From Pelosinus sp. UFO1 (GTDB taxonomy: Bacteria; Bacillota; Negativicutes; DSM-13327), in NCBI RefSeq assembly GCF_000725345.1, contig NZ_CP008852.1:3030001-3094000 (forward strand): DNA of 64,000 nucleotides, in the 5' to 3' direction. Under the pieces are notes generated by a model. That model made no database searches. It was not told the origin of the DNA and was given only the letters and a program-made list of their open reading frames with translations. The position numbers and the translations under genes are program-made. Of this stretch, positions 8,187 through 42,514 are shown piece after piece (position 1 is the first letter of the stretch; each line of letters opens with the position of its first letter).

Positions 8187-8906
8187 TTAGCCAATAAATT
8201 CTTGGCTGATCATTAGACCGTACGGTCCACCCTTGATAATACCAATACCAATTTTTGTGTAATTCGGGCTTAGAATATTACTACGGTGCCCTGGAGAATT
8301 CATTAATGCAGTATGGGCAGCTCCTACTGTCCAATTTCCGGCGATGTTTTCACCAGCCGTATTAAAAGTAATTCCTTGCGCTTTCATTAAGTCAAAAGGA
8401 GAGCCATATTTTGCCGATATGTGACTAAAATAGTGATTGTCAATCATATCCTGGCTCTTCATTCTACCAACTTTAACTAATTGCATGTCTACTTGTAAAG
8501 GTTTGACCCCGTTTTTCACACGCTCTTGATTAACAAGAGTTATCATTTGTTGCTCTTCGGCGGTCAATCCTGCCGGTAAACTAGTTGGATTGCTCGTCGG
8601 AGCGGGAGTTGGGACAGGAGTTGGTGCCGGTGTAGGTTTCGGAGTCGGTGCTGGACTTGGAGTCGGCGTCGGTGTAGGTTTCGGGGTCGGTGCTGGACTT
8701 GGAGTCGGAACCGGTATCGGTTGCTTATTAATTACCCACGTAAATTGTGTCGGAGAATTGCTGGCAACGCTTGTGCCATAAGTAGTACCTTGTACCCCAT
8801 TTATAGTATAGGTTACGACAGGGGTAGCGGCAAATGCGGGTAAGGAACACGCTGTCAGGACTGCTGTAGTTAAACCTGTTAGAACTAAACCACGTAAATT
8901 TTTAAT
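8187..8906 (-). CDS. Secreted CAP (SCP/PR1, YkwD-like) protein, ATT start
   Basis: About 239 residues. A signal peptide ([17 protein letters not shown] then LPAFA) leads into a short region, a Pro-Thr/Ser-rich linker (about 75-110, [12 protein letters not shown] repeated) and a CAP domain (about 114-239) with HYFSH, GENIA and the closing motif [19 protein letters not shown] proteins are extracellular; in spore formers YkwD-type proteins occur around the spore or wall. The frame has no ATG, GTG or TTG between its upstream stop at 8924 and the end of the signal peptide, but AGGAGG lies 8 nt before ATT at 8906 (5 nt before ATT at 8909). A start inside the CAP domain at 8567 would lose the export signal. 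Confidence 0.85.
8606..8730 (-). repeat. Tandem repeats encoding the Pro-Thr linker
   Basis: Imperfect 6- to 42-bp direct repeats of CCNACN and related codons encode the low-complexity linker of the CAP protein. They also create an antisense Gly-Val ORF that is not a gene. Confidence 0.8.
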
Positions 8907-9362: not shown

Positions 9363-10112
9363 ATGATAGACAGTAAATATTTCGAAATTCCAGATTTTTG
9401 TAGTCTCACCAGACAAGAGGAAAACGAGCCCTGTAATGATTGTCTGAACACTTTTGCCGTCTGCGGTCCCGCCTTCGGAACCGATCTTATCCCAGTCAAT
9501 CCCACACCTGAATGCGTGTGCCATGACATTTGTGTCGAAGAAGTACGCTTTATTAGTAGCGCAAACGCAACAGCTTGTATTGCCTTTCCTGGCGTTAACC
9601 CATGCCGGTTAGGTGGCGTACAATTACCAACACTTACGGCAAATGACCATTGCGATGTTTTCGTTATTTGTGCGGATGAAAGTATTACTGACAATTGTAC
9701 AACAATTACTGTACGAATAGGGCTTTTGATCGTCTGCACTACCACTGCCGGTGTTCCAGTTCCATTTGTCACAACCATTACGTTAGTCTTCCCTGGCACC
9801 AGTTTCATACCTTTCCCTGATTGCACCACTGGTCCACTCAATGCTGTACAATTCCAAGAAGCTCTGGAAATCATTGATGGTTCCTGCACCGTAATTCAGT
9901 TAAATGCAACTACGAATGCAACTGGAACTCAAATCAATATTGCTGGTAAAGTTATCGAAAAATTGTGGAAACACGAAAATCTATGGGTAGTCGGTCTGCG
10001 GCCTTTCGATTTAAGCCCTAACGATGTAGCGATAAATGGTTTTGTTTCCTTCACCATTAGCCAGGAGCTACAACCCATCAATTCGTGCGCTAGTTTCCCA
10101 TGTCCATTCTAA
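9363..10112 (+). CDS. Cys-rich protein of unknown family
   Basis: 249 residues with an excellent RBS (GAGGAGG, 7-8 nt before ATG). There is no signal peptide or membrane helix. About 20 cysteines are spread over the first 180 residues, partly as spaced pairs (EPCNDC, PECVCHDIC, CASFPCPF at the end), and the middle consists of Val/Thr/Ile-rich beta-like stretches (FVTTITLVFPG). Such Cys-rich, signal-less beta proteins are common among spore-coat and exosporium components, but I recognise no family, so that role is inference. A strong terminator follows immediately. It is divergent from the CAP gene and may share control with it. Confidence 0.8.
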   Translation: MIDSKYFEIPDFCSLTRQEENEPCNDCLNTFAVCGPAFGTDLIPVNPTPECVCHDICVEEVRFISSANATACIAFPGVNPCRLGGVQLPTLTANDHCDVFVICADESITDNCTTITVRIGLLIVCTTTAGVPVPFVTTITLVFPGTSFIPFPDCTTGPLNAVQFQEALEIIDGSCTVIQLNATTNATGTQINIAGKVIEKLWKHENLWVVGLRPFDLSPNDVAINGFVSFTISQELQPINSCASFPCPF

Positions 10113-10300: not shown

Positions 10301-10825
10301 TCATTCGGATTTGGGTATGCCTGATGAATTAATAAGCCCCTCTAGCCGCTGTAGCTTCGCCTCCACAATCTGGAGACGGGTCGTCAATCCTGTCACAGCA
10401 GCCTGCCCATTGTCAGCTACCGGAGTTGCTCGTTCCCACATTCGACTCTTACTAGCTTCTGCTGATTTACTAGCCACTCCTCTGCGCAATTGCTCTACAG
10501 CAGTCATATCAGGTAAAATATATACTTTTTGTTCCCCGTTTTCAAATGCCAAGTTTTCCTCACTTAACAGTTGTTCACCAGCAGTATTGCCTATTAAAGC
10601 CTGGAGACGGGTATTCATTTCTAGCAGCATCTCATCTTGCTGCTGGTCATCCCTGCCTGAATCCAATTTACGCAATAATCGCTGCTGACTAAGGCCTCCC
10701 TTTCCTCCGGGCGAAAGATTCCGGATAAGTTGATCTACAGCCTCTGCATCGTTTAACACATACACTTTTTGCTCGTCATTCTGACAGGCAAGATATTCTT
10801 CGCTCAGGTCTTTTTTTTCTGTCAT
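10301..10825 (-). CDS. Protein of unknown function with duplicated motif
   Basis: 174 residues; no family recognised. Two ~32-residue segments are clearly homologous: one beginning LSEEYLACQNDEQKVYVL near residue 6 and one beginning LSEENLAFENGEQKVYIL near 87, each continuing to AV(D/E)QL. Each is followed by a Gln/Arg/Leu-rich segment, and the C-terminus (TTRLQIVEAKLQRLEGLI) has heptad-like Leu spacing suggesting a coiled coil. No signal peptide or membrane segment is seen. The ATG at 10825 is chosen because AGGAGG lies 9 nt upstream; a TTG three codons earlier abuts the RBS. It lies between the Cys-rich gene and the glycan island. Confidence 0.75.
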   Translation of the reverse strand: MTEKKDLSEEYLACQNDEQKVYVLNDAEAVDQLIRNLSPGGKGGLSQQRLLRKLDSGRDDQQQDEMLLEMNTRLQALIGNTAGEQLLSEENLAFENGEQKVYILPDMTAVEQLRRGVASKSAEASKSRMWERATPVADNGQAAVTGLTTRLQIVEAKLQRLEGLINSSGIPKSE

Positions 10826-10957
10826 AAATTTCAACCTCCTTTTTTATACAAGGTTAGACCGTCCATTGATTCATTATAATGTTATAAAAGCTATCACAAT
10901 CTTTAGGTGCTATAGTATATGCCGTAGATTGATTTTCGTGCTGAACGAGTGCGATAT

Positions 10958-13900
10958 TTATACCTTATTTTCATATTCCTGATAAATCGTAAGCAGAACT
11001 TTTTCATACTCCGGTTGTGCCGCCGCACCGTCAAACAAAATAATAGCCCGCTCTTTTATTTGGCTCTTTACTCTATTACGCAGCTCACTATCCAGAGCAA
11101 ACCGCACTGCCCAGTCAACATACTCGGTCTCATTGGCTGCAATGCCCTCCTGTATTCCCAGAGCCCTGAGCATATGCGCCCCCCAACGGCTACGAGCCAT
11201 ATCGCCCTCCTGCGTGATAATCGGCAATCCCATATATAACGCTTCCATATTAGTAGTCCATCCACCGTAGGGATAGGTATCAAGTTGAATATCAGCAATA
11301 GAGAGCAAAGCGGAAACATCATTAAGCGGCGGCACTATAAACAGTCGATTACCCACTCCTGCTTTTTCAACTGCTTTGATAATTCGTTCGGATATTCGAC
11401 TATCTAGATTACTGGAATAGCATGGTTTAAGCAAGATACAGGCATTCGGTGCCTTTTTTAGTATATCTACCAACAGAGAATCTCTTTGCGGACCATGCTT
11501 AATGCCATTTGCGCAAGAAACAAAAACAATTGCATCATCCGGTATCTTCCAATCGTTACGAGTAGAGATCTTATCCTGTTTAAACGGAGGCGGGTATTGC
11601 GCGGCGCCCAAATTCGGCAATTTTATGAGCTTCTCCCGATAATGAGACTCAGCATTTTCAGGTTCAAAATCACCGCTGATATAGTATTGTATCGTCGGCA
11701 AACCGGTTGTAGTGCCATGCCCTACCATGGCACATTGTACAGGAGCAAGTTGCATGCCGGCTAGAAGATAAGTGGCAGGATCCATACCGATGTCAGTATA
11801 AATCAAAACATCCAATTTAGAGTCCATAATTCCTTTGGCAATACCGGTAACGTCCGCTAGATTCGTATATTGCAGGAATTTATCACTATACTCTTTAAAA
11901 ATTTCTGTCATTGCATCACAGTGATCTCCCAATGAAAAAATAGTTATCTCGAAATTGTCTTTATCATGATGGATGACCCGGTTGACCATGTAGTAACTAA
12001 CTGCCTGATTGCGAAAGAATCTTGAGATATAGCCAACACGCAGTTTACCTTCCTTTCGATGCATACGGTGCTGAAAACTAGGTTCCACATTTTGTAGACT
12101 AAACCGCGCCATATGTAACGAAATAAAGTTCCCTAAGGCAGTAAGTGCTGACAGGTTGTTACCACCAACATAGGAAACACGCCAAAAACCATCCACCAAT
12201 TTATTGACAATGGAAATAAAAAACTCTGATGGCATGGATATCCTGCATAATTCTGGAGCATACCTTAAGAGCTGCTGGCGGTGCCCTTCTTCAATATTGT
12301 AGTATGGAACATGTAGCATCCACAAACTAAGGATGGCTTTAGGGTAAAGCGGAACCTTTGATTCATTCCACAATTCAGTGGCATGAATATCGTAAGTCTC
12401 TGCAGCATAAGGATGATACATACTTTCCAGCATTATCCTTATATACCGTGATATCGAATCCGTAGCAATGGAATTAAAATTCCCAAGGCTATCATTATTA
12501 ACCTGTGTACCAACACTAGAATTTAGCGGCAAAAATGAATTAAAGAACAGCTGCCACCACACCGTTATTAACAAGCGTTCTTCCCTCTTCCCGACTTTCA
12601 CCAGTTCATCAAGAGGTGTTTGGGTGAAATAGTGAACCAATTGTTCCCGTAGCTGTCGACTAAAACGCAAAAGCTCTTGCATTTCTTCTTGCGGCAATGC
12701 ACCGCATTGCATCGTCATTTTCCGGTATGTAACCCACTGTTCGATGATTTCCCATAAAATCCAACTTTCAGCAACCACATCAGCCATACTGAGACAACAG
12801 CAATAGAATTGGTCGGTAAATACTGCCCGTTGGCTAGCTGGATAACTCCCATATCTGCTATATAAGTTCCTAAACTCTTGCCAAACATTGCCCCATCCTC
12901 CAGTCGTTTTGGCTTTTTCAATAAACTGCAGCATATTTTCTTTCTGCAGAACCGGGAAGCATGAAGCGATAGACCAGGTTTTCGCACTCAATATTTCTTG
13001 ATACAATCTGGCATAGTCGTCTACCATCCGCGTTACACTAAACTGTTCAACCATTCTTCTGCGTGCTGCTTCTCCAGCAAGTCGCCTTTTATCAGAATCA
13101 TTTAAAAAGGTTGAAATTCCAGATGCTAGACCATCACTATTACCTCGATCGACCAAATAACCAGTTTGCTCATGAACAACAATTTCCGGAATCCCTCCCG
13201 TAGCAAAGGCTACAACAGGTATACCGCACGACTGTGCTTCACAAACAGTAAGCCCAAAAACTTCGGCCAATGCCGGAGATACATATAAGTCAGCTGCACC
13301 ATAATAATCGGCCATGAGCCGCTGATCGTCAATAAATGGAATATCAATATGCGGTATGGGCAGTTCCTCAAGAACCGAATTGTCAGCAGTACCGATATTG
13401 AGGAGAAGTGCATCTGGGCACTGGATTTTTTTCAAGGCCTCGATCAAAAACCTTCCGCCTTTTCTCTGATCATTAAAACCGCCATGAGCTGCGAACATAA
13501 TAATTTTTTTCTCAGCAGGCAACCTTAATTTTTCTCGGAGCTCTAGACGATTTCCAGGTCGAAAAGTATCTATATCAATACCATTGTGAATTGTCCTAAC
13601 GTTATGGTCCCGCAGTATACTGTTTTTAGCCTGCTTTTCCAGCCAGGCAGACGGACATACCGCCGTGAATTTGGCTATTTTGTAAATCGAGCCTTTAATA
13701 AGCTGAATTAATTCGCGCTGCGGTCGCTGACCAAAAACCTGAGAATCCAGCGGACATGCTGTACACCAGTCATTTTGCCACCCATTGCAGTCTTCTGTAT
13801 TATAACAGCCTGCCGTAAAAGCCAGCGGATCATGCAGTGTCCAAACTAAAGGCTTCGCCGCTAAAAAAGGTAATAACAAAAAGGAGAAATATCCTCCATT

Positions 13901-14197
13901 GATACAGTGCAGGTGAACAATATCAGCCTGCTCAAATAAAGGATGCCCAATCACGTCCAATAGAGCTGCAGAGTATAAATCAAATAGCCCCTGCTGGGCT
14001 TGTTGCTGCAATAATCCTTTTTGCCACCTGGTCTGCGGGACAGCTATTGGTATGACTCGCGGATCATTTGTAGTGTTGTGATAGGCGAAAACATGGACAT
14101 CATGTCCCTGAGCCGTCATAGAATTCATAATCTGCCAGGCAATTCTAGCGGCTCCGCCTTTAGCATCAAAAAGATTCACGTGTATTATACGCAACAT
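10958..14197 (-). CDS. Two-domain glycosyltransferase (GT4 + GT41/SPINDLY-like)
   Basis: About 1079 residues. Residues 1-400 form a GT-B glycosyltransferase of the GT4 group (HVNLFDAKGGAARIAW, an FVSPALAEVFGL-like acceptor loop seen as YVSPALAEVFGLTVCEAQ, and SCGIPVVAFATGG). About 400-680 is a helical region of unknown role. About 700-1079 resembles the catalytic part of O-GlcNAc transferase/SPINDLY (RVGYISRFFRNQAVSYYM; APVQCAMVGHGTTTGLPT; LDTYPYGGWTTNMEALYMG). GT41-type enzymes add sugars to Ser/Thr of proteins, so protein glycosylation is plausible. The ATG at 14197 has GGGAG 6 nt upstream; earlier in-frame codons lie in or before the RBS. It follows the HlpA-like transferase gene across a repeat element. 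Confidence 0.88.
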   Translation of the reverse strand: MLRIIHVNLFDAKGGAARIAWQIMNSMTAQGHDVHVFAYHNTTNDPRVIPIAVPQTRWQKGLLQQQAQQGLFDLYSAALLDVIGHPLFEQADIVHLHCINGGYFSFLLLPFLAAKPLVWTLHDPLAFTAGCYNTEDCNGWQNDWCTACPLDSQVFGQRPQRELIQLIKGSIYKIAKFTAVCPSAWLEKQAKNSILRDHNVRTIHNGIDIDTFRPGNRLELREKLRLPAEKKIIMFAAHGGFNDQRKGGRFLIEALKKIQCPDALLLNIGTADNSVLEELPIPHIDIPFIDDQRLMADYYGAADLYVSPALAEVFGLTVCEAQSCGIPVVAFATGGIPEIVVHEQTGYLVDRGNSDGLASGISTFLNDSDKRRLAGEAARRRMVEQFSVTRMVDDYARLYQEILSAKTWSIASCFPVLQKENMLQFIEKAKTTGGWGNVWQEFRNLYSRYGSYPASQRAVFTDQFYCCCLSMADVVAESWILWEIIEQWVTYRKMTMQCGALPQEEMQELLRFSRQLREQLVHYFTQTPLDELVKVGKREERLLITVWWQLFFNSFLPLNSSVGTQVNNDSLGNFNSIATDSISRYIRIMLESMYHPYAAETYDIHATELWNESKVPLYPKAILSLWMLHVPYYNIEEGHRQQLLRYAPELCRISMPSEFFISIVNKLVDGFWRVSYVGGNNLSALTALGNFISLHMARFSLQNVEPSFQHRMHRKEGKLRVGYISRFFRNQAVSYYMVNRVIHHDKDNFEITIFSLGDHCDAMTEIFKEYSDKFLQYTNLADVTGIAKGIMDSKLDVLIYTDIGMDPATYLLAGMQLAPVQCAMVGHGTTTGLPTIQYYISGDFEPENAESHYREKLIKLPNLGAAQYPPPFKQDKISTRNDWKIPDDAIVFVSCANGIKHGPQRDSLLVDILKKAPNACILLKPCYSSNLDSRISERIIKAVEKAGVGNRLFIVPPLNDVSALLSIADIQLDTYPYGGWTTNMEALYMGLPIITQEGDMARSRWGAHMLRALGIQEGIAANETEYVDWAVRFALDSELRNRVKSQIKERAIILFDGAAAQPEYEKVLLTIYQEYENKV

Positions 14198-14204
14198 GAT
14201 CATC

Positions 14205-14353
14205 TCCCTTACCATTATCTTCGTCAACAGCCTGTTATCCCCGCACATGAAGCTCGGGGATAACAGGCTGTAAAAGTTCGAACTAAGTTCGCTCTAAGGT
14301 CGGTAGGGGCATAACCCCTTCCAGATCCAAGGCTCACTTATATCCGAAGTGAG
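14205..14353 (-). repeat. Structured dispersed repeat, copy E
   Basis: The minus strand matches 22541-22662 in several blocks: a CACTT/AAGTG hairpin, AAGTGAGCCTTGG, GCGAACTTA.TTCGA, AGCCTGTT and ACAGGCTGTT.ACGA. The copy contains a perfect 17-bp stem (14227-14243 with 14255-14271), a small AGGGG/CCCCT hairpin and the CTCACTT/AAGTGAG hairpin that overlaps the stop codon of the upstream gene. Confidence 0.8.
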
Positions 14354-28742: not shown

Positions 28743-29687
28743 TCAAAGGTTCTGGCTTTCTAAATTATCAAAAATATACCACTGGTACGTTTTACGAATC
28801 CCATCTTCTAACACTATTCTAGGCCGCCAACCTAGCGCTGTGAGTTTCGAAATATCCAATAGTTTGCGGGGTGTTCCATCCGGCATTTGAGCATTATACA
28901 CAATGTTACCCTGATACCCCACGATTCCGGCAACTAGTTCAGCCAACTCAGCGATCGAGATATCTTCACCAACGCCAACGTTAATTGGCTCACTTCCCTC
29001 ATACTCATCCATAAGGAAAAGACAGGCATCAGCAAGATCATCAATATAGAGAAACTCGCGGCGGGGTTTTCCAGTACCCCATATGTCAACACTCGAATTG
29101 CTATTCACTTTAGCCTCATGAAATTTCCTTATAAGTGCCGGAAGGACATGGGCCGATGCCAGATCAAAGTTATCGTTAGGGCCATACAGATTTGTCGGCA
29201 TGACAGATATAAAATTAGTACCATACTGCTGATTATAAGCCTTGCATAATTCGATTCCAGCAATTTTTGCAACTGCATAAGCCTCATTGGTAGACTCCAA
29301 TTTGCCTGTCATTAAATACTCCTCTTTTATCGGTTGGAGGGCAAACTTTGGATAGATGCATGAACTTCCTAGTAATAATAACTTTTTCACCCCTGATTTA
29401 TATGCAGCGTGTATAATATTAGTTTCTATCATGATATTGTCATAAATAAATTGGGCAGGGAAAACGCTATTGGCTAGTATACCGCCTACTTTTGCGGCTG
29501 CTAGAAACACATATTCTGGCCGCTCCGTTGCAAAAAAATGATTAACGGCTGTCTGGTCACGTAAATCCAATTCTTTGCTGGATCGAACTATCACATTTTC
29601 GCAGTCACACTCTCGCAATCTATGGATTATAGCAGAACCTACCAAGCCACTGTGCCCTGCTACATAAATTCTCGCTGTCCTATTCAT
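28743..29687 (-). CDS. fcl: GDP-L-fucose synthase
   Basis: 314 residues. The NADP-binding motif is [10 protein letters not shown], the catalytic Ser and Cys lie in LGSSCIYPK, and the Tyr-Lys pair is in [16 protein letters not shown] carries the conserved His. It performs the epimerase-reductase step from GDP-4-keto-6-deoxymannose to GDP-L-fucose. It follows gmd by 40 nt. ATG at 29687 is preferred (GGGAGG 5 nt upstream). Confidence 0.95.
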
Positions 29688-29727
29688 ACCTGCCTCCCAT
29701 ACGGTCACAAATCACCGCATATAAAAT

Positions 29728-30816
29728 TTAGTCAAAATGGCTGTTAATAGGAAACCCATGCTCTTTACACAAACAATCACGTTCAACTATTTTTGTATCT
29801 TCATCAACCATCATCTTTACTAATTCATGGAAACAGACTTCCGGCTGCCAATTCAATTTATCTTTAGCCTTTGTTGCATCGCCCAGCAAAATATCAACTT
29901 CAGTTGGCCGAAAATAACGTGGATCAATACGCACCAATACTTTGCCGGTCATAGCATCCACGCCGTGTTCTTCAAGCCCCACTCCCCGCCACTCAATAGT
30001 AATATCGATATTCTTAAATGCTAGTTCTACAAATTCACGTACCGAATGGGTTTGACCTGTTGCGATTACGTAATCTTCCGGTTCTTGCTGCTGAAGCATA
30101 AGCCACATGGCCTTAACATAATCACCGGCAAAACCCCAGTCTCTTTTTGCATTCAAATTACCCAAGTATAATATATTACCTAATCCCAGTTTGATGCAGG
30201 CCACAGCCCTGGTTATTTTCCGAGTGACAAAAGTCTCTCCCCTTATCGGTGATTCATGGTTGAACAATATTCCGTTACAGGCAAACATTCCATAGGCTTC
30301 GCGGTAATTGACAGTAATCCAGTAGGCATATAACTTGGCTGCAGCATAAGGACTGCGAGGATAAAACGGTGTAGTTTCCCGCTGGGGAATTTCCTGAACT
30401 TTCCCATATAACTCACTGGTTGAGGCCTGATAGAACTTAACCTTCTTTTGCATACCCAATATACGTAAAGCTTCAAGTAACCTAAGGGTGCCAAGTCCAT
30501 CCGCGTTAGCTGTATACTCAGGCGTATCGAAGGAAACCTGGACATGACTTTGCGCAGCCAGATTATAAATTTCATCCGGCTTAACTTCCTGAATAATTCG
30601 AATCAGATTGGTTGAATCTGTCAAATCACCATAGTGCAGGAAAAAATTAACATTTTGTTCATGACTATCTTGATACAGATGGTTTATTCTTGCTGTATTT
30701 AGAAGTGAGCTTTTTCGTTTTATGCCATGGACGATATAGCCCTTTTTAAGTAAAAAATCAGCCAAGTATGCCCCATCTTGACCTGTTATCCCAGTAATTA
30801 AAGCAATTTTATCCAT
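29728..30816 (-). CDS. gmd: GDP-mannose 4,6-dehydratase
   Basis: 362 residues. [16 protein letters not shown] binds NADP, STSELYG holds Ser/Thr and the catalytic Glu, and YAAAK the Tyr-Lys pair; [18 protein letters not shown] is diagnostic of GMD. It makes GDP-4-keto-6-deoxymannose, the substrate of fcl just downstream. It is first in an operon gmd-fcl-27503-26739. A good RBS (AAAGGA) precedes the ATG. Confidence 0.96.
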
Positions 30817-31020: not shown

Positions 31021-34000
31021 TCAATGATGCCGTTTTCTTCGTCTTAGCTTCTTTGCGTGTAATTGTGTAATAACTGCCAATTCCTCTTTTAGCGACAATA
31101 TTTCGTGATTAACCATATTTCCCTGCTGCAACAATTGCTCTACTATCGTTTGAGGGCAAGTAGCCAGTTCTTCAGAACTGTACTCCTCTATTTGTTCATT
31201 TACCTGCTGCTGTTCTATTTGTTGATTTGCCTGTTCCTGCGCTTTGCGGAGAGCTGTCAACTCAACTTTGAGCAGCAATATTTCTTTACTAATTACGTCT
31301 TTCTGCTGTAATATTTCTGTTAGTCTTCTAGAACATCCAGCTACTTCTTCTAACATATGCCGGATAGTTCCCATTTCGTCCTTTAAATGGCGTACCTCTT
31401 CCGCGACATTCGATTTTACATTTTCTCCTGCCTGTTCTTCTCTTTCCTGCTGTTCCTTATCTTGCTGCAAAGCAGCTACTTCAGATGTAATCTTAGAAAA
31501 CTCCTGCATAAATATGTTTTGCTGCAACTGTAATTGTTCTTCTATAGCTTGAGGGATGCACTCGATCTTCCCTGAAACATCCTGTATAAATACGGTTTGC
31601 TGTAACTGTAGCTGTTCTTCTATAGTTTGAGGGATCCCCTCTATCTTCTTTGCAACATCCTGCATTAATACGCTTTGCTCTAACTGTAGTTGCTCTTTTA
31701 TAGCTTGAGGAATGCCCTCTATTTTCCCTGAAACATCCTGCATAAATACGTTTTGCTCTAATTGTAGTTGCTCTTTTATAGCTTGAGGAATGCCCTCTAT
31801 TTTCCCTGAAACATCCTGCATAAATACGCTTTGCTCTAACTGTAGTTGCTCTTTTATAGCTTGAGGAATGCCCTCTATTTTCCCTGAAACATCCTGTATA
31901 AATACGGTTTGCTGTAACTGTAGCTGTTCTTCTATAGTTTGAGGGATCCCCTCTATTTTCCCTGAAACATCCTGCATAAATACGCTTTGCTCTAACTGTA
32001 GTTGCTCTTTTATAGCTTGAGGAATACCCTCTATTTTCCCTGAAACATCCTGCATAAATACGTTTTGCTGTAACTGTAGCTGTTCTTCTATAGCTTGAGG
32101 GATCCCCTCTATCTTCTTTGCAACATCCTGCATTAATACGCCTTGCTCTAACTGTAGTTGCTCTTTTATAGCTTGAGGAATACCCTCTATTTTCCCTGAA
32201 ACATCCTGCATAAATACGCTTTGCTCTAACTGTAGTTGCTCTTTTATAGCTTGAGGTATGCACTCTATCTTCCCTGAAACATCCTGTATAAATACGTTTT
32301 GCTGTAACTGTAGCTGTTCTTCTATAGCTTGAGGGATCCCCTCTATCTTCTTTGCAACATCCTGCATTAATACGCTTTGCTCTAACTGTAGTTGCTCTTT
32401 TATAGCTTGAGGAATACCCTCTATCTTCTTTGCAACATCCTGCATTAATACGCCTTGCTCTAACTGTAGTTGCTCTTTTATAGCTTGAGGAATGCCCTCT
32501 ATTTTCCCTGAAACATCCTGCATAAATACGCTTTGCTCTAACTGTAGTTGCTCTTTTATAGCTTGAGGAATACCCTCTATTTTCCCTGAAACATCCTGCA
32601 TAAATACGTTTTGCTGCAACTCTAGATCATCCTGCATAAATACGCTTTGCTGTAGCTGTAGTTGCTCTTTTATAGCTTGAGGAATGCCCTCTATCTTCTT
32701 TGCAACATCCTGCATTAATACGCCTTGCTCTAACTGTAGTTGCTCTTTTATAGCTTGAGGAATGCCCTCTATTTTCCCTGAAACATCCTGCATAAATACG
32801 TTTTGTTCTAACTGTAGTTGCTCTTTTATAGCTTGAGGAATACCCTCTATTTTCCCTGAAACATCCTGCATAAATACGCTTTGCTCTAACTGTAGTTGCT
32901 CTTTTATAGCTTGAGGAATACCCTCTATTTTCCCTGAAACATCCTGCATAAATACGCTTTGCTGTAGCTGTAGTTGCTCTTTTATAGCTTGAGGAATGCC
33001 CTCTATCTTCTTTGCAACATCCTGCATTAATACGCCTTGCTCTAACTGTAGTTGCTCTTTTATAGCTTGAGGAATGCCCTCTATTTTCCCTGAAACATCC
33101 TGTATAAATACGTTTTGCTGTAACTGTAGCTGTTCTTCTATAGTTTGAGGGATCCCCTCTATCTTCTTTGCAACATCCTGCATAAATACGTTTTGCTGCA
33201 ACTCTAGATGTTCCTCCATTACCTGAGGAAATGCGTCTATTTTTTCTAGAGCGTCCTGCCACTTATTCTGCAATTCTTTCGTTAACTGCATTTCTCTTTC
33301 TTCCTGCTTCTTCTGCTGATTGACCTCTTCTAGCAAATGGATTTTCATTTCGTCTATTAAATAGCGTATATCTTCTGTAATATTCCATTTTGCATTATCT
33401 TCTGCTATTTGTTCTCTTTCCCACTGTTCCTTATCTTGTTGCAAAGCAGTCAATTCAGATATAATCTTAGAGATCTCTTGCACGAATACGCTTTGCTGAC
33501 GTTGTAGTTGTTCCTCTATAGCTTCAGGGAAACATTCTATTTTTCCTAAGACTTCCTGCCACTTATTCTGCAATTCATTTGTTAACTGTGATTCGCTTTC
33601 TTCCTGCTTCTTCTGCCACTCAACTTCTTCTAACATATGGATTTTGATTTCGTCCATTAAATGACGTATTTCTACAACATTCCATCCCATATTATCTTCT
33701 GCTATTTGTTCTCTTTCACGCTGTTCCTTCTCTTGTCGCAAAACGGCCAATTCAGATATAATCGTAGCGATCTCTGGCATAAATACGCTTTGATGCATCT
33801 GTAGCTGTTCCTCTATCCCTTGAGGAAATGCATCTATTTTTCCTAAAACGTCCTGCCACTTATCCCGCAATTCTTTCTTTAACTGTGAATCGCGTTCTTC
33901 TTGCTCCTTCTGTCGCTCAACCTCTTCTAACATATGGATTTCCATTTTGTCCATTAAATGGCGTATTTCTGCTGCTATTTGTTCTCTTTCTCGTTGTTCC

Positions 34001-35874
34001 TTATCTTGCCTCAAATCGACCAATTCAGATATAATTGTGGAGATCTCTGGCATAAATATATTTTGCTGCGGTTGTAGCTGTTCCTCTATCGCTTGAGGGA
34101 AACCGTCTATTTTTCCTAAAACATCCTGCCACTTATTCTGTAATTCTTTCGTTAACTCTGTTTCGCGTTCTTCCTTCTTCTTCTGCCGATTGCTCTCTTC
34201 CAACATATGGATTTTGATTTCGTCCATTAAATGACGAATCTCTTCCGCAACATTCCATTTTGCATTATCTTCTGTTGTTTGTTCTCTTTCCCGCTGTTCC
34301 TTATCTTGCTGCAAGACGGTCAATTCAGATATAATTTTAGAAAATTCCTGCATAAATACACTTTGCTGCAGCTTTAGTTGTTCCTCTATCCCCTGAGGGA
34401 ATACATCTATTTTTCCTAAAATTTCCTGCCACTTATCCTGCAATTCTTTCGTTAACTCTACTTCGCGTTCTTCTTGCTTTCTTTGCCACTCAACCTCTCC
34501 TAACATATGTACTCCCATTTCGTCTATTAAATGGCGTACCTCTTCTACGACATTCCATCCCGCATTATTTCCTGCTGCTTGTTCTTTTTCACGTTCTTCC
34601 TTATCTTGCTGTAAAACGGCCAATTCAGATATAATTTTAGAAATTTCCTGCAACAATACGTTTTGCTGCAGCTGTAGCTGTTCCTCTACTCCCTGAGGGA
34701 CAGCTTCTATTCTTCCTAAAACATCCTGCCACTTATCCTGCAATTCTCCCGTTAACTGCGATTCACGTTCTTCCCGCTTCTTTTGCCACTGCCCCTCTTC
34801 CAACATATGTGCTCCCATTTCGTCTATTAAATGGCGTACCTCTTTTGCTACATCCCATCCCGCATTATTTCCTGCTGTTTGTTCTCTTTCACGCTCTTCT
34901 TTATCTTGCTGCAGAACGGCCAATTCAGATATAATTCTAGAAAATTCTTGCATAAACATGCTTTGTTGCAACTGTAGCTGATCCTCTACCCCCTGAGGAA
35001 AAACTTCTATTCTTCCTAAAACGTCCTGCCACTTATCCTGCAATTCTTTCGTTAACTGCGATTCACGTTCTTCCTGATCCTTCTGCCGCTCAGCCTCTTC
35101 TAACATATGAAATTCCATTTCATCCATTAAGTGGCGTATCTCTACTGCCATTTGTTCTCTTGCCCGCTGTTCTTTATCTTGCTGCAAAACGACCAATTCA
35201 GATATAATCGTAGAAATCTCTTGCATAAACATACTTTGCTGCAACTGTAGCTGTTCTTCTATTCCCTTAGGGAAAGCATCTATTTTCCCTAAGACTTCCT
35301 GCCACTTATCCTGCAGTTCTTTCGTTAACTGCACTTCTCGCTCTTCTTGCTTCTTTTCCCGCTGCTCCTTATCTTGCCGCAAAACAGCCAATTCGGCTAT
35401 AATCCCAGAGATTTCTTGAACAAATACACTTTGCTGCAGCTGTAGTTGTTCCTCTATCGCCTGAGGGAAATCGTTTATTTTTTCTAAAACATTCTGCCAT
35501 TTATCCTGTAATTCTTCGGTTAACTCTGCTTCGCGTTCTTCCTGCTCCTTTTGTCGCTCAACCTCTATCATACTCCACTCACTTTTCTGGTTCGCCTGTG
35601 ATTGGTAAATTTTCATTATCTCATTCTTAAGTTCTGATATTTCTTGCTCAAGTAAGCTTTCCAGGCGCTCCATTTGCTCCTTTACCATGGGATAATTGGC
35701 TACACTAACCATGTCTTGGCCTTCCAGTTGTATTGCATTTAAGGATTCTAGCTTGCCGCGCAATCCCCATTTCAGTTGATTCACATTGATTTCGGCGGGT
35801 AACTCATGTACTACCGGTACTTTGTTCTCAGATATCAGTTTCTCCAGATTATATCTTCTCCGTATCCCAGCCAT
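31021..35874 (-). CDS. Giant Gln/Glu-rich repeat protein (coiled-coil-like)
   Basis: 1617 residues with a strong RBS (AAGGAG) and its own terminator. A non-repetitive head (1-100, YNLEKLISENKVPVVHELPAE) precedes nine ~100-115-residue units marked by ELQ(D/N)KWQ(D/E)VLG, each with a linker such as IISELAVLQQDKE and VRHLIDEMG. In the ninth unit a 26-residue element (KIEGIPQAIKEQLQLEQ then VFMQDVSG) is expanded to 21 near-identical copies (about 904-1461). The tail ends in basic LRRRKRHH. There is no signal peptide, membrane helix or Cys. Predicted mostly helical; the Pro in each 26-mer breaks a continuous coiled coil. The role is unknown: a filament, scaffold or glycosylation substrate of the surrounding locus. 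No related gene is in the window. Confidence 0.9.
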   Translation of the reverse strand: MAGIRRRYNLEKLISENKVPVVHELPAEINVNQLKWGLRGKLESLNAIQLEGQDMVSVANYPMVKEQMERLESLLEQEISELKNEIMKIYQSQANQKSEWSMIEVERQKEQEEREAELTEELQDKWQNVLEKINDFPQAIEEQLQLQQSVFVQEISGIIAELAVLRQDKEQREKKQEEREVQLTKELQDKWQEVLGKIDAFPKGIEEQLQLQQSMFMQEISTIISELVVLQQDKEQRAREQMAVEIRHLMDEMEFHMLEEAERQKDQEERESQLTKELQDKWQDVLGRIEVFPQGVEDQLQLQQSMFMQEFSRIISELAVLQQDKEEREREQTAGNNAGWDVAKEVRHLIDEMGAHMLEEGQWQKKREERESQLTGELQDKWQDVLGRIEAVPQGVEEQLQLQQNVLLQEISKIISELAVLQQDKEEREKEQAAGNNAGWNVVEEVRHLIDEMGVHMLGEVEWQRKQEEREVELTKELQDKWQEILGKIDVFPQGIEEQLKLQQSVFMQEFSKIISELTVLQQDKEQREREQTTEDNAKWNVAEEIRHLMDEIKIHMLEESNRQKKKEERETELTKELQNKWQDVLGKIDGFPQAIEEQLQPQQNIFMPEISTIISELVDLRQDKEQREREQIAAEIRHLMDKMEIHMLEEVERQKEQEERDSQLKKELRDKWQDVLGKIDAFPQGIEEQLQMHQSVFMPEIATIISELAVLRQEKEQREREQIAEDNMGWNVVEIRHLMDEIKIHMLEEVEWQKKQEESESQLTNELQNKWQEVLGKIECFPEAIEEQLQRQQSVFVQEISKIISELTALQQDKEQWEREQIAEDNAKWNITEDIRYLIDEMKIHLLEEVNQQKKQEEREMQLTKELQNKWQDALEKIDAFPQVMEEHLELQQNVFMQDVAKKIEGIPQTIEEQLQLQQNVFIQDVSGKIEGIPQAIKEQLQLEQGVLMQDVAKKIEGIPQAIKEQLQLQQSVFMQDVSGKIEGIPQAIKEQLQLEQSVFMQDVSGKIEGIPQAIKEQLQLEQNVFMQDVSGKIEGIPQAIKEQLQLEQGVLMQDVAKKIEGIPQAIKEQLQLQQSVFMQDDLELQQNVFMQDVSGKIEGIPQAIKEQLQLEQSVFMQDVSGKIEGIPQAIKEQLQLEQGVLMQDVAKKIEGIPQAIKEQLQLEQSVLMQDVAKKIEGIPQAIEEQLQLQQNVFIQDVSGKIECIPQAIKEQLQLEQSVFMQDVSGKIEGIPQAIKEQLQLEQGVLMQDVAKKIEGIPQAIEEQLQLQQNVFMQDVSGKIEGIPQAIKEQLQLEQSVFMQDVSGKIEGIPQTIEEQLQLQQTVFIQDVSGKIEGIPQAIKEQLQLEQSVFMQDVSGKIEGIPQAIKEQLQLEQNVFMQDVSGKIEGIPQAIKEQLQLEQSVLMQDVAKKIEGIPQTIEEQLQLQQTVFIQDVSGKIECIPQAIEEQLQLQQNIFMQEFSKITSEVAALQQDKEQQEREEQAGENVKSNVAEEVRHLKDEMGTIRHMLEEVAGCSRRLTEILQQKDVISKEILLLKVELTALRKAQEQANQQIEQQQVNEQIEEYSSEELATCPQTIVEQLLQQGNMVNHEILSLKEELAVITQLHAKKLRRRKRHH
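31492..33165 (-). repeat. 78-bp tandem repeat array
   Basis: 21 in-frame units encode KIE(G/C)IPQ elements. Most are identical or differ at positions such as S/N/G/T before V(F/L) and VSG versus VAK. One junction near 32605-32642 is irregular: a unit stops after MQD and the next resumes with LELQQN, matching the segment that precedes the array at 33181-33210. Confidence 0.95.
33166..35560 (-). repeat. Nine long (~330-bp) imperfect repeats
   Basis: Each unit encodes E(R/E)E..LT.ELQ.KWQ...I..FPQ and a following IISEL block. Units differ at many positions and vary in length through presence or absence of the AGNN(A/M)GW segment, so this array is much older than the 78-bp array. Confidence 0.9.
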
Positions 35875-36088
35875 GCTTCCAGCTCCTTGTCGCTATTAAT
35901 TTTAAAAATCAATTAACTATGATTTGTGTAAACAAAATTATCATAGCTATATCCATAATATATGTAACGACAAAAATTTTGGTGAAACCAATACCGCAAT
36001 ATATGTCAGTCACTAATTTACCTACTTGATCATAAAATAATTAGGACATTGGAAATACGCGATATTTTCAAAAGGAGCTTTTAAAAGC

Positions 36089-37063
36089 ATGAAAAAAGCG
36101 CTTATCACTGGTATAACTGGTCAGGACGGCTCTTATTTAGCAGAGTTTTTGCTAAATAAGGGCTATGAAGTGCACGGAGTCGTTAGGCGATCAACTATGG
36201 AAACACTTACTAAAATGAGTAATTTAAAAAATGTTTTAGATAATATACACTTGCATACCTGCTCATTGGATAACCATTTAGCCGTTTATAAACTTATTTC
36301 ACTAGTTCAGCCAGATGAATGCTATCATTTAGCCGCCTCTAGTTTTGTAAGTTATTCCTTTGAAGATGAAGTAAGTACTATTTTTTCAAATTTTATTTCT
36401 ACTCATTATATTTTATCGAGTATTAAAGAGCTTGTTCCAAAGTGTAGAGTATACTTTGCAGGATCAAGTGAGATGTTTGGCTATGCCGATCATTCACCTC
36501 AAAATGAGCATACGAAATTTAATCCCCGCTCAATTTATGGAATATCAAAGCTATCAAGTTATTATATTGTGAAAAATTATCGTGAATATCATCACCTATA
36601 TGCCTGCACGGGATTTACTTATAATCATGAATCGCCGCGCCGTAGCCATGCTTTTGTCACGCGAAAAATTACATCAGGTGTTGCTAAAATAGCTCTTGGA
36701 TTGGCAACAAAAATTGAATTAGGTAATATTGATGCGATCAGAGATTGGGGGTATGCTCTCGAATATGTTACAGCAATGTGGCTCATGCTAAATAATCCAC
36801 AAGGCCCTACTGATTATATAATCGCAACTGGCATACCACATACCGTAAGAGATTTATTAGAGGTAGCCTTTGGAGTGGTTAATCTTGATTATCAAGACTA
36901 CGTAGTTGTAAGCAATGAGTTCTTTAGACCCGCCGAACAAATTCCATTATTAGGTGATTCCTTTAAGATTTACCAAGATCTTAAATGGCGTCCTACATGC
37001 CCTTTTAAAGATATTATTAAAGAAATGGTGGTTAATGATATAAATTTGTTAAAAACCTTTTAG
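36089..37063 (+). CDS. GDP-mannose 4,6-dehydratase paralogue
   Basis: 324 residues, the second GMD-like protein of the locus. [23 protein letters not shown] (catalytic Glu), YGISK and NHESPRRSHAFVTRKIT are visible. In true GMDs the segment after ESPRR is G-E-T; here it is S-H-A, and the protein is nearly 40 residues shorter than the 29728 product. It may make a different GDP-6-deoxyhexose intermediate or act on another nucleotide sugar. It is divergent from the giant repeat gene, and no second reductase lies next to it, although the transferase gene 37279 follows in the same direction. Confidence 0.85.
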   Translation: MKKALITGITGQDGSYLAEFLLNKGYEVHGVVRRSTMETLTKMSNLKNVLDNIHLHTCSLDNHLAVYKLISLVQPDECYHLAASSFVSYSFEDEVSTIFSNFISTHYILSSIKELVPKCRVYFAGSSEMFGYADHSPQNEHTKFNPRSIYGISKLSSYYIVKNYREYHHLYACTGFTYNHESPRRSHAFVTRKITSGVAKIALGLATKIELGNIDAIRDWGYALEYVTAMWLMLNNPQGPTDYIIATGIPHTVRDLLEVAFGVVNLDYQDYVVVSNEFFRPAEQIPLLGDSFKIYQDLKWRPTCPFKDIIKEMVVNDINLLKTF

Positions 37064-41257: not shown

Positions 41258-42514
41258 TTACTCCCTTATCTGTCCATTGCCTGAAATAATATATTTGATA
41301 CTCGTTAATTCTGCCAATCCCATAGGACCGCGAGCATGTAGTTTTTGGGTACTGATACCAATTTCAGCGCCAAAGCCGAATTCAAACCCATCTGTAAAAC
41401 GAGTAGAAGCATTCACATAGACAGCAGCTGCATCTACTTCATGGTGAAAACGTATGGCATTCTCGTTATTTTGCGTAACAATAGCCTCTGAATGACGAGT
41501 ACTATATTGATCAATATGTTCCAACGCCTCATCAAGATCAGCAACTACTTTTACGGATAAGATGAAGTCTGAGTACTCCGTAGCCCAATCGTCATCACTA
41601 GCTGGCTTTACGCACTTGTGATAGTTTCTTGTTACAGAACATCCTCTAAGCTCTACACCAGCCTGCTGATATTTCATAAGCATCTCTGGCAAAAACTTGC
41701 CTGCCACTTCCTTATGCACTAGCAAGGTTTCCATGGAATTACATACACCTGGTCTGGATACCTTAGCATTAAAGGCAATGGACTGTGCCATATTAAGATC
41801 CGCCGATTCATCCACAAAAGTATGGCATATTCCTGTACCTGTTTCAATAACAGGTACCGTACTATTTTCTACCACTGTTTTTATCAACCCAGCCCCACCA
41901 CGAGGAATAATGACATCCAAATACTGATTAAGCTTCAACATAGCATTAACAGCCTGGCGATCTGTAGTTTCAATCAATTGAAACGCACCCACAGGAATCC
42001 CAGCATTATACGCCGCTTGGGAAATGACTTTGGTAATGGCAGTATTCGAATGAATCGCCTCAGACCCCCCTCGTAGAATTACAGCATTTCCAGTCTTTAA
42101 ACAAAGTCCTGCTGCATCAACTGTCACATTAGGACGTGCCTCATAGATAATACCAATTACACCAAGAGGAACTCGTACCTTAGTAATTTCTAGACCATTA
42201 GGCCTGCAATTTGTACTAAGAACTTCACCGATCGGATCCGGTAATTCTGCAATTTGCCTTAAGCCATCTGCCATACTTTGAATTCTACTTTGGGTTAGTA
42301 ATAAACGATCTAGTAAGGATTCAGACAAGCCCTTTTCTTTACCATTCTCTATATCTATCACATTAGCAGCTAAAATAGCTTCCCATTCTCTCTCTAGAGC
42401 ATCTGCCATACTAACAAGGGCCTGATTTTTAACCGTAGTGGATAGGGTAGCAAGTTTTCTCGCTGCCTGTTTGGCACTCTTACCTTTAACCTCTAGTTCT
42501 GATAGATGTCCCAT
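41258..42514 (-). CDS. proA: Gamma-glutamyl phosphate reductase ProA
   Basis: 418 residues, full length. The catalytic cysteine lies in SRPGVCNSMETLL, with IPRGGAGLI and the C-terminal GFGAEIGISTQKLHARGP also diagnostic. It reduces gamma-glutamyl phosphate to glutamate semialdehyde in proline synthesis. It is 16 nt behind proB, at the end of the operon obg-yhbY-proB-proA, and closed by a strong terminator. nadD, its usual next neighbour, is 33 kb away. Confidence 0.97.
   Translation of the reverse strand: MGHLSELEVKGKSAKQAARKLATLSTTVKNQALVSMADALEREWEAILAANVIDIENGKEKGLSESLLDRLLLTQSRIQSMADGLRQIAELPDPIGEVLSTNCRPNGLEITKVRVPLGVIGIIYEARPNVTVDAAGLCLKTGNAVILRGGSEAIHSNTAITKVISQAAYNAGIPVGAFQLIETTDRQAVNAMLKLNQYLDVIIPRGGAGLIKTVVENSTVPVIETGTGICHTFVDESADLNMAQSIAFNAKVSRPGVCNSMETLLVHKEVAGKFLPEMLMKYQQAGVELRGCSVTRNYHKCVKPASDDDWATEYSDFILSVKVVADLDEALEHIDQYSTRHSEAIVTQNNENAIRFHHEVDAAAVYVNASTRFTDGFEFGFGAEIGISTQKLHARGPMGLAELTSIKYIISGNGQIRE

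Follow-up and report, generated by a model that had tools for sequence, protein, structure and literature searches.

Pelosinus sp. UFO1 encodes a protein of 1617 residues, P0001, that profile searches place in a small family as its most extreme member; among 300 genomes of the class, this family was seen in the Pelosinus order only. We consider it probable (roughly 0.7) that P0001 is a mostly alpha-helical structural rod, made by the mother cell at a late stage of sporulation and carried on the spore surface in the outer coat or exosporium. The spore location, the assembly into rods, the roles of the two ends and the function are what we infer from gene context, a conserved promoter-like motif and structure prediction.

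The window analysed is a stretch of 64,000 nucleotides (G000:C1:3030001-3094000) from a single-contig genome of 5,115,410 bases. The first published version of this genome, assembled from PacBio reads, is given as 5,114,828 bp (PMC4155594). Below, G001-G009 denote the other nine genomes of the order. The features discussed are collected in Table 1.

Table 1. Features of the P0001 gene and its surroundings, in window positions.
Feature	Position	Strand	Basis or remark
Whole gene, coiled-coil-type repeat protein P0001, 1617 aa	31021..35874	-	ORF; A1 profile match E=3.1e-11
N-terminal region, residues 1-93, with QLKWxLR(x)GK-like motif	35596..35874	-	homologue alignments
Long-unit array, nine KWQ-anchored units, residues ~110-895	33190..35547	-	repeat analysis
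26-residue array, 21 units of KIEGIPQAIKEQLQLEQSVFMQDVSG type, residues 904-1461, within long unit nine	31492..33165	-	
C-terminal region, residues 1462-1610, including the remainder of long unit nine	31045..31491	-	
Basic tail KLRRRKRHH, resembling the KKKRRxRRG-type tails of homologues	31024..31050	-	alignments
Sigma-K-like promoter motif TCAC-N17-CATATATTA (putative), ~81 nt 5' of the ATG	35956..35985	-	same motif before 10/10 homologues
proA	41258..42514	-	four genes between proA and the giant gene
gmd (GDP-mannose 4,6-dehydratase) and GDP-fucose-synthase-like epimerase gene, downstream of the giant gene	28743..30816	-	
GT4-GT41 fusion glycosyltransferase, 1096 aa, candidate protein-modifying enzyme	10958..14248	-	PF13844 E=4.7e-33, PF00534 E=4.3e-30
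177-aa gene without family match, sigma-K-like motif 78 nt upstream	10301..10834	-	
Divergent second GDP-mannose-dehydratase-like gene, own sigma-K-like motif from 36012 (+)	36089..37063	+	

Gene and repeat architecture of P0001

The gene is one uninterrupted reading frame on the minus strand, with its ATG end at 35874, its stop at 31021 and the sequence AAGGAG 8 nt upstream of the ATG. The protein has a predicted mass of 188.6 kDa and a pI of 4.61, and contains 15.8% Gln and 15.5% Glu. A preliminary description, made from the letters alone, had reported that it lacks a signal peptide, a membrane helix and Cys. By inspection no signal peptide was apparent, and the highest 19-residue Kyte-Doolittle mean was 1.08, so P0001 has no transmembrane helix. 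The statement on Cys was wrong, since there are five, at residues 781, 1205, 1439, 1514 and 1573.

Nested tandem repeats had been described over these 1617 residues, and this architecture was borne out in an intact gene. Residues 1-93 are non-repetitive. They are followed by nine long units, as counted before, whose KWQ anchors lie at residues 125-871. Their length had been put at about 110 residues, which is too high; the eight gaps between anchors are 65, 91, 100, 100, 100, 91, 99 and 100 residues, that is, a spacing of 65-100. The self-identity at lag 100 was 0.394 over residues 94-880, compared with a mean of 0.089 and a maximum of 0.125 in 500 shuffles. The 21-fold expansion of a 26-residue element in the last long unit was likewise found, as 21 KIE(G/C)IP units at residues 904-1461. 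This array starts within long unit nine, whose sequence continues behind it, so that the array is followed by the remainder of unit nine, a further stretch and the basic tail. Self-identity at lag 26 was 0.754 over residues 881-1480 (maximum of 500 shuffles, 0.139), and one step, from 1060 to 1098, is 38 residues instead of 26. The short unit is similar to one part of the long unit, KI(D/E)xFPQxIEEQLQLQQxVFMQ; this similarity agrees with the origin proposed for it.

At the DNA level the short units were on average 89.5% identical to each other, and the cores of the first eight long units 78.9%. By this comparison the short array looks younger. The pooled dN/dS was 0.34 for the 21 short units and 0.29 for the 75-residue cores of the first eight of the nine long units. 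The repeat copies are thus under purifying selection, with a dN/dS of about 0.3, which argues for a translated and constrained protein.

P0001 belongs to a small family of the Pelosinus order

P0001 was searched against 11 genomes, its own and 10 others. Weak matches appeared in six Pelosinus genomes, each to an ORF of 291-301 residues directly after proA. Profile A1 was built from these six sister-species homologues and searched against 300 genomes of the class. It matched 10 of them, which are all ten genomes of the order (eight Pelosinus including UFO1, and two of another genus), and found no relatives in the remaining 290. P0001 itself matched A1 at E=3.1e-11 over model positions 27-288 of 298. 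The N-terminal 93 residues, searched against 60 genomes including UFO1, had found the own genome only; this search was poor because it is insensitive, and A1 later found ten. Homologues measure 223-301 residues in eight of the ten genomes, 527 in G009 and 1617 in UFO1. The G002 homologue is about 281 residues long when counted from the start supported by a ribosome-binding site.

The gene order is largely shared. In all nine other genomes proA lies directly 5' of the homologue. The 3' neighbour is gmd in seven of them (G001-G005, G007 and G009), five of these being among the six homologues found first. The 3' neighbours are collagen-like genes in G006, the sixth, and a collagen-like gene in G008. 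In the window P0001 is not directly after proA, yet its downstream neighbour gmd is kept.

The short Pelosinus homologues (291-301 residues as called) resemble P0001 in the promoter motif, the QLKW motif, the predicted helical middle, the basic tail and, apart from the displaced proA, the gene order. In the QLKWxLR(x)GK-like motif the W, R and G are invariant across 10 aligned rows. In contrast to P0001 they lack a tandem array and have less than one fifth of its length, although the own long unit can be recognised in them. The preliminary description had suggested a profile search with this unit. With an HMM built from the long unit of P0001, each of the nine homologues outscored all 100 of its shuffles, with scores that are low and composition-biased. 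At an i-E below 0.01, two copies were found in seven of the nine and one copy each in G001 and G002. Because the homologues score above their shuffled controls, the unit evidently predates the expansion.

The G009 homologue agrees with P0001 in its place and its ends and is also tandemly expanded, but a different segment is amplified (NQEILSLKSEFAIVAQ...), in steps of 31 residues with one step of 23. A proA tree did not group UFO1 with G009 and implied two changes, forced by its starred branches; the G009 row of this tree is 32% filled, and the tree does not resolve how UFO1, G006 and the G008-G009 pair branch from each other. Since the repeat units differ and the proA tree separates the two genomes, the expansions are independent of each other.

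P0001 had been said to belong to no described family. This stands for the collections searched: Pfam gave no family at E<=0.01 (including no Collagen and no BclA_C, PF18573), NCBIfam and PDB sequences gave nothing, and there was no match to a named PHROGs family. It does not hold for relatives as such, which are present in 10/10 genomes of the order. Foldseek, run with the homologue model, gave nothing at E<=0.001. Four Pfam matches of the G009 protein, MAPKK1_Int and Vps23_core among them, fell short of the curated cut-offs and were set aside as coiled-coil noise.

Predicted shape

AlphaFold2, run on alignment A2, predicted a single helix of 181 residues (73-253) for a short homologue, with 133 of 297 residues at a pLDDT of at least 90 and both ends at low confidence. 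The strands that this model shows at residues 15-29 likewise have low confidence and are partly upstream of the start supported by a ribosome-binding site, and we do not claim an N-terminal domain from them.

The hydrophobic periodicity of the 26-residue array is 3.72 (=26/7). Six residues of the unit (I2, I5, I9, L13, F20 and V24) fall on one face of 70 degrees, and L15, V19 and M21 lie off it. The periodicity and the six-residue face would be in keeping with an amphipathic helix that is nearly straight. Every unit contains Gly(or Cys)-Ile-Pro, and a single-sequence model of residues 756-1060 showed helix breaks near Gly-Ile-Pro in the array; with a mean pLDDT of 58.4, this model is too weak to choose between a rod and hairpins. 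Given these low-confidence breaks and the three off-face residues, a continuous rod is no more than a possibility in the 26-residue array. Compared with the canonical heptad value of 3.5, the long array gave 3.58 and 3.65, and the C region gave 3.50, which is below its 99% null. At a helix rise of 0.15 nm per residue, approximately 1390 residues of P0001, if helical, would reach a length of about 200 nm as an upper bound, and the homologue helix would span about 27 nm.

A sigma-K-like promoter motif precedes all members of the family

The motif AC-17-CATANNNTA was found 5' of the gene in all ten genomes of the order. The pattern AC...CATANNNTA is what we take to be the sigma-K consensus of B. 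subtilis. By chance the motif is expected in 0.6-1.8% of 150-nt regions, as estimated for nine upstream regions. In an unanchored MAFFT alignment of the upstream region, which has diverged elsewhere, conservation was highest in the block TCACcAAA...ACATATATTA. When five divergent genomes were compared after anchoring on the motif, the tens across it were 0.74, 0.52 and 0.84 identical, the next ten 0.54, and all other flanking tens 0.19-0.43. The unanchored alignment is the fairer evidence, because anchoring by itself forces 8 of the 28 motif bases to agree. From this conserved match we infer that sigma-K may control the P0001 family. Sigma-E may be an alternative for the putative promoter. Judging from the element lengths and the gap of 15 +/- 1 in a passage of PMC517825, the spacing of 17 lies at the low end of the implied range.

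The same motif was present within -200 to +150 of 15 of 20 collagen-like (BclA-type) ORFs and of 0 of 28 control genes (P=1.4e-8). These 20 ORFs are those in the loci examined rather than all Collagen matches of the genomes, the paralogues among them are not independent, and the controls are window genes outside the locus, some of them operon-internal. Five collagen-like ORFs lack the motif: 2/2 in G002, 2/3 in G004 and 1/4 in G005. Within 150 nt, 4 of 22 locus genes had the motif, compared with 0 of the 28 controls (P=0.032). The total in the whole window was unremarkable (7, with 4.8 expected).

In P. fermentans JBW45 (G004), a gene in a place similar to that of the 177-aa gene of Table 1 (L025 16527-16955) is likewise preceded by a sigma-K-like motif; the orthology was judged by eye.

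The sigK profile TIGR02846 matched the UFO1 genome in two pieces, at G000:C1:2785008-2785424(-) and 2765390-2765659(-). In six of the ten genomes (UFO1, G001, G002, G004, G005 and G006) such pieces, covering model positions of about 4-143 and 137-226, share a contig and are separated by roughly 5-19 kb. In G003 they are on two contigs, and in G007-G009 the first piece stands alone among the matches listed. A 517-residue serine recombinase (PF07508, PF00239) adjoins the first piece in UFO1 and in JBW45. The sigK gene thus apparently contains a skin-type element. A literature search found no paper on Pelosinus sigK.

Collagen-like genes and the spore setting

A passage of PMC6107796 describes spore-like structures of UFO1 and regrowth after treatment at 85 C. 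A narrow literature check on the exosporium of Pelosinus brought up a single paper, whose subject is Pasteuria, and a search for coiled-coil repeat proteins of spores found none.

In G006 (L024 2461-12525) the homologue is followed by five tandem collagen-like genes, all five with the sigma-K-like motif. Two of them exceeded the Pfam cut-off of 38 bits for BclA_C (83.4 and 39.3 bits). Pfam Collagen was over its cut-off in seven of the ten genomes (G001, G002 and G004-G008), and a search with a G006 protein agreed. There were no Collagen matches in the complete UFO1 genome, in G009 (genome 83% complete) or in G003 (291-residue homologue; genome 89% complete, in 270 contigs). Collagen-like genes are therefore present in 0/2 genomes with an expanded homologue and in 7/8 without (Fisher P=0.067, n=10). 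Only the absence from UFO1 is firm, because draft metagenome assemblies easily lose repetitive genes. G003 is an exception, having neither expansion nor collagen matches. We treat this inverse relation as a lead, not a result.

P0001 would resemble the BclA/collagen-like exosporium filament proteins in being built from repeats, elongated, without a signal peptide and variable in repeat number among relatives. Most of the collagen-like ORFs tested share its promoter motif, and such genes adjoin the homologues in G006 and G008. It differs in having predicted helical Gln/Glu-rich repeats instead of Gly-X-Y triplets.

The surrounding sugar locus

The locus contains a UDP-glucose-dehydrogenase-like gene, several glycosyltransferases, two GDP-mannose-dehydratase-like genes, a GDP-fucose-synthase-like gene and the GT4-GT41 fusion. 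The fusion is also found in the locus of JBW45, with 1068 residues. Proteins are direct substrates of GT41 enzymes. With a single NXS/T sequon, 65 Ser and 30 Thr among its 1617 residues, P0001 is a possible, not an obvious, glycan acceptor. The sugar genes might just as well be for surface glycans of vegetative cells.

Discussion

The preliminary description had suggested a structural surface or spore polymer. This suggestion gains support from the sigma-K-like motif common to the family and the BclA/collagen-like genes, from the collagen-like genes beside two homologues, from the missing export signal and from the long helix predicted for a homologue. The lack of a signal peptide is as expected for assembly from the mother-cell side. 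We propose that the mother cell would make the rod late in sporulation and lay it on the spore surface. The QLKWxLR(x)GK motif at the N-terminus and the basic C-terminal tail would be conserved end pieces, plausibly for anchoring, with the helical middle as a spacer between them. In the UFO1 lineage this spacer would have grown in two steps, by duplication of the unit of about 100 residues and, more recently, by 21-fold amplification of a 26-residue piece of that unit.

Several other readings were considered. They overlap with the spore rod, and the odds we give them do not sum to one. P0001 might instead be a scaffold of the vegetative cell envelope or the cytoplasm that organises the enzymes encoded next to it, both sugar-nucleotide enzymes and glycosyltransferases, in the making of LPS, capsule or S-layer glycans. 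Its gene immediately precedes gmd and has glycosyltransferase genes around it, Negativicutes possess an outer membrane, the absent export signal fits a cytoplasmic protein, and the basic tail could attach to membranes or to acidic polymers. The conserved motif common to the BclA/collagen-like genes points away from this, as does G006, which has the homologue but nothing matching gmd at E<=1e-60, and collagen-like genes in that place, so that we regard a scaffold as quite unlikely. The preliminary description had also raised a substrate of the locus. Such a role as glycan carrier, in which P0001 would become a brush-like glycoprotein through glycosylation by a GT41-type enzyme in the mother cell, is compatible with the spore rod. 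The GT4-GT41 fusion in the UFO1 and JBW45 loci and the suitability of repeat arrays for multivalent modification speak for it; we still think it unlikely, given the few acceptor residues and the Thr-rich collagens, which are likelier acceptors where present. The preliminary description had itself pointed to phage tape-measure and tail-fibre proteins. Long coiled-coil repeat proteins are known in phages, and PHROGs gave two matches, both to families of unknown function and neither with an individually significant stretch. A phage origin is hardly credible, since neither P0001 nor A1 has relatives in viral contigs, the neighbours scanned gave no phage family among their Pfam or NCBIfam matches, and the chromosomal place by proA is conserved.

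The remaining alternative concerns the expansion and would leave the spore location in place. Similar units of 78 bp invite slippage, and the added length may be neutral growth of a spacer, without function and with the absence of collagen a coincidence. The collagen relation (n=10, P=0.067) and G003, without expansion or collagen, would agree with this. Against it, the frame is kept over 21 and 9 units with purifying selection among the copies, and a second in-frame expansion, from another segment, occurred in G009. We hold neutral slippage to be quite possible, at somewhat less than even odds. Another idea is that lineages without BclA-type collagen independently lengthened a helical rod of the same regulon, from different segments, and so replaced the brush of the spore surface; this is doubtful at present. 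If true, the same spore layer would be built from an unrelated repeat fold.

Should the spore-rod reading be right, related spore formers would offer a natural length series of one rod, of 223, about 300, 527 and 1617 residues. It would thereby become testable how the length of a filament affects spore adhesion, surface properties and metal binding.

Other observations in the window

The window encodes a Cys-containing protein of about 250 residues at 9363-10112 (+), which by eye is like one at L025 16986-17744; these proteins gave no Pfam or NCBIfam match. A 42-bp repeat at 8617-8722 adjoins a CAP-domain gene at 8187-8567 (-) and perhaps encodes a Pro/Thr-rich linker on the minus strand.
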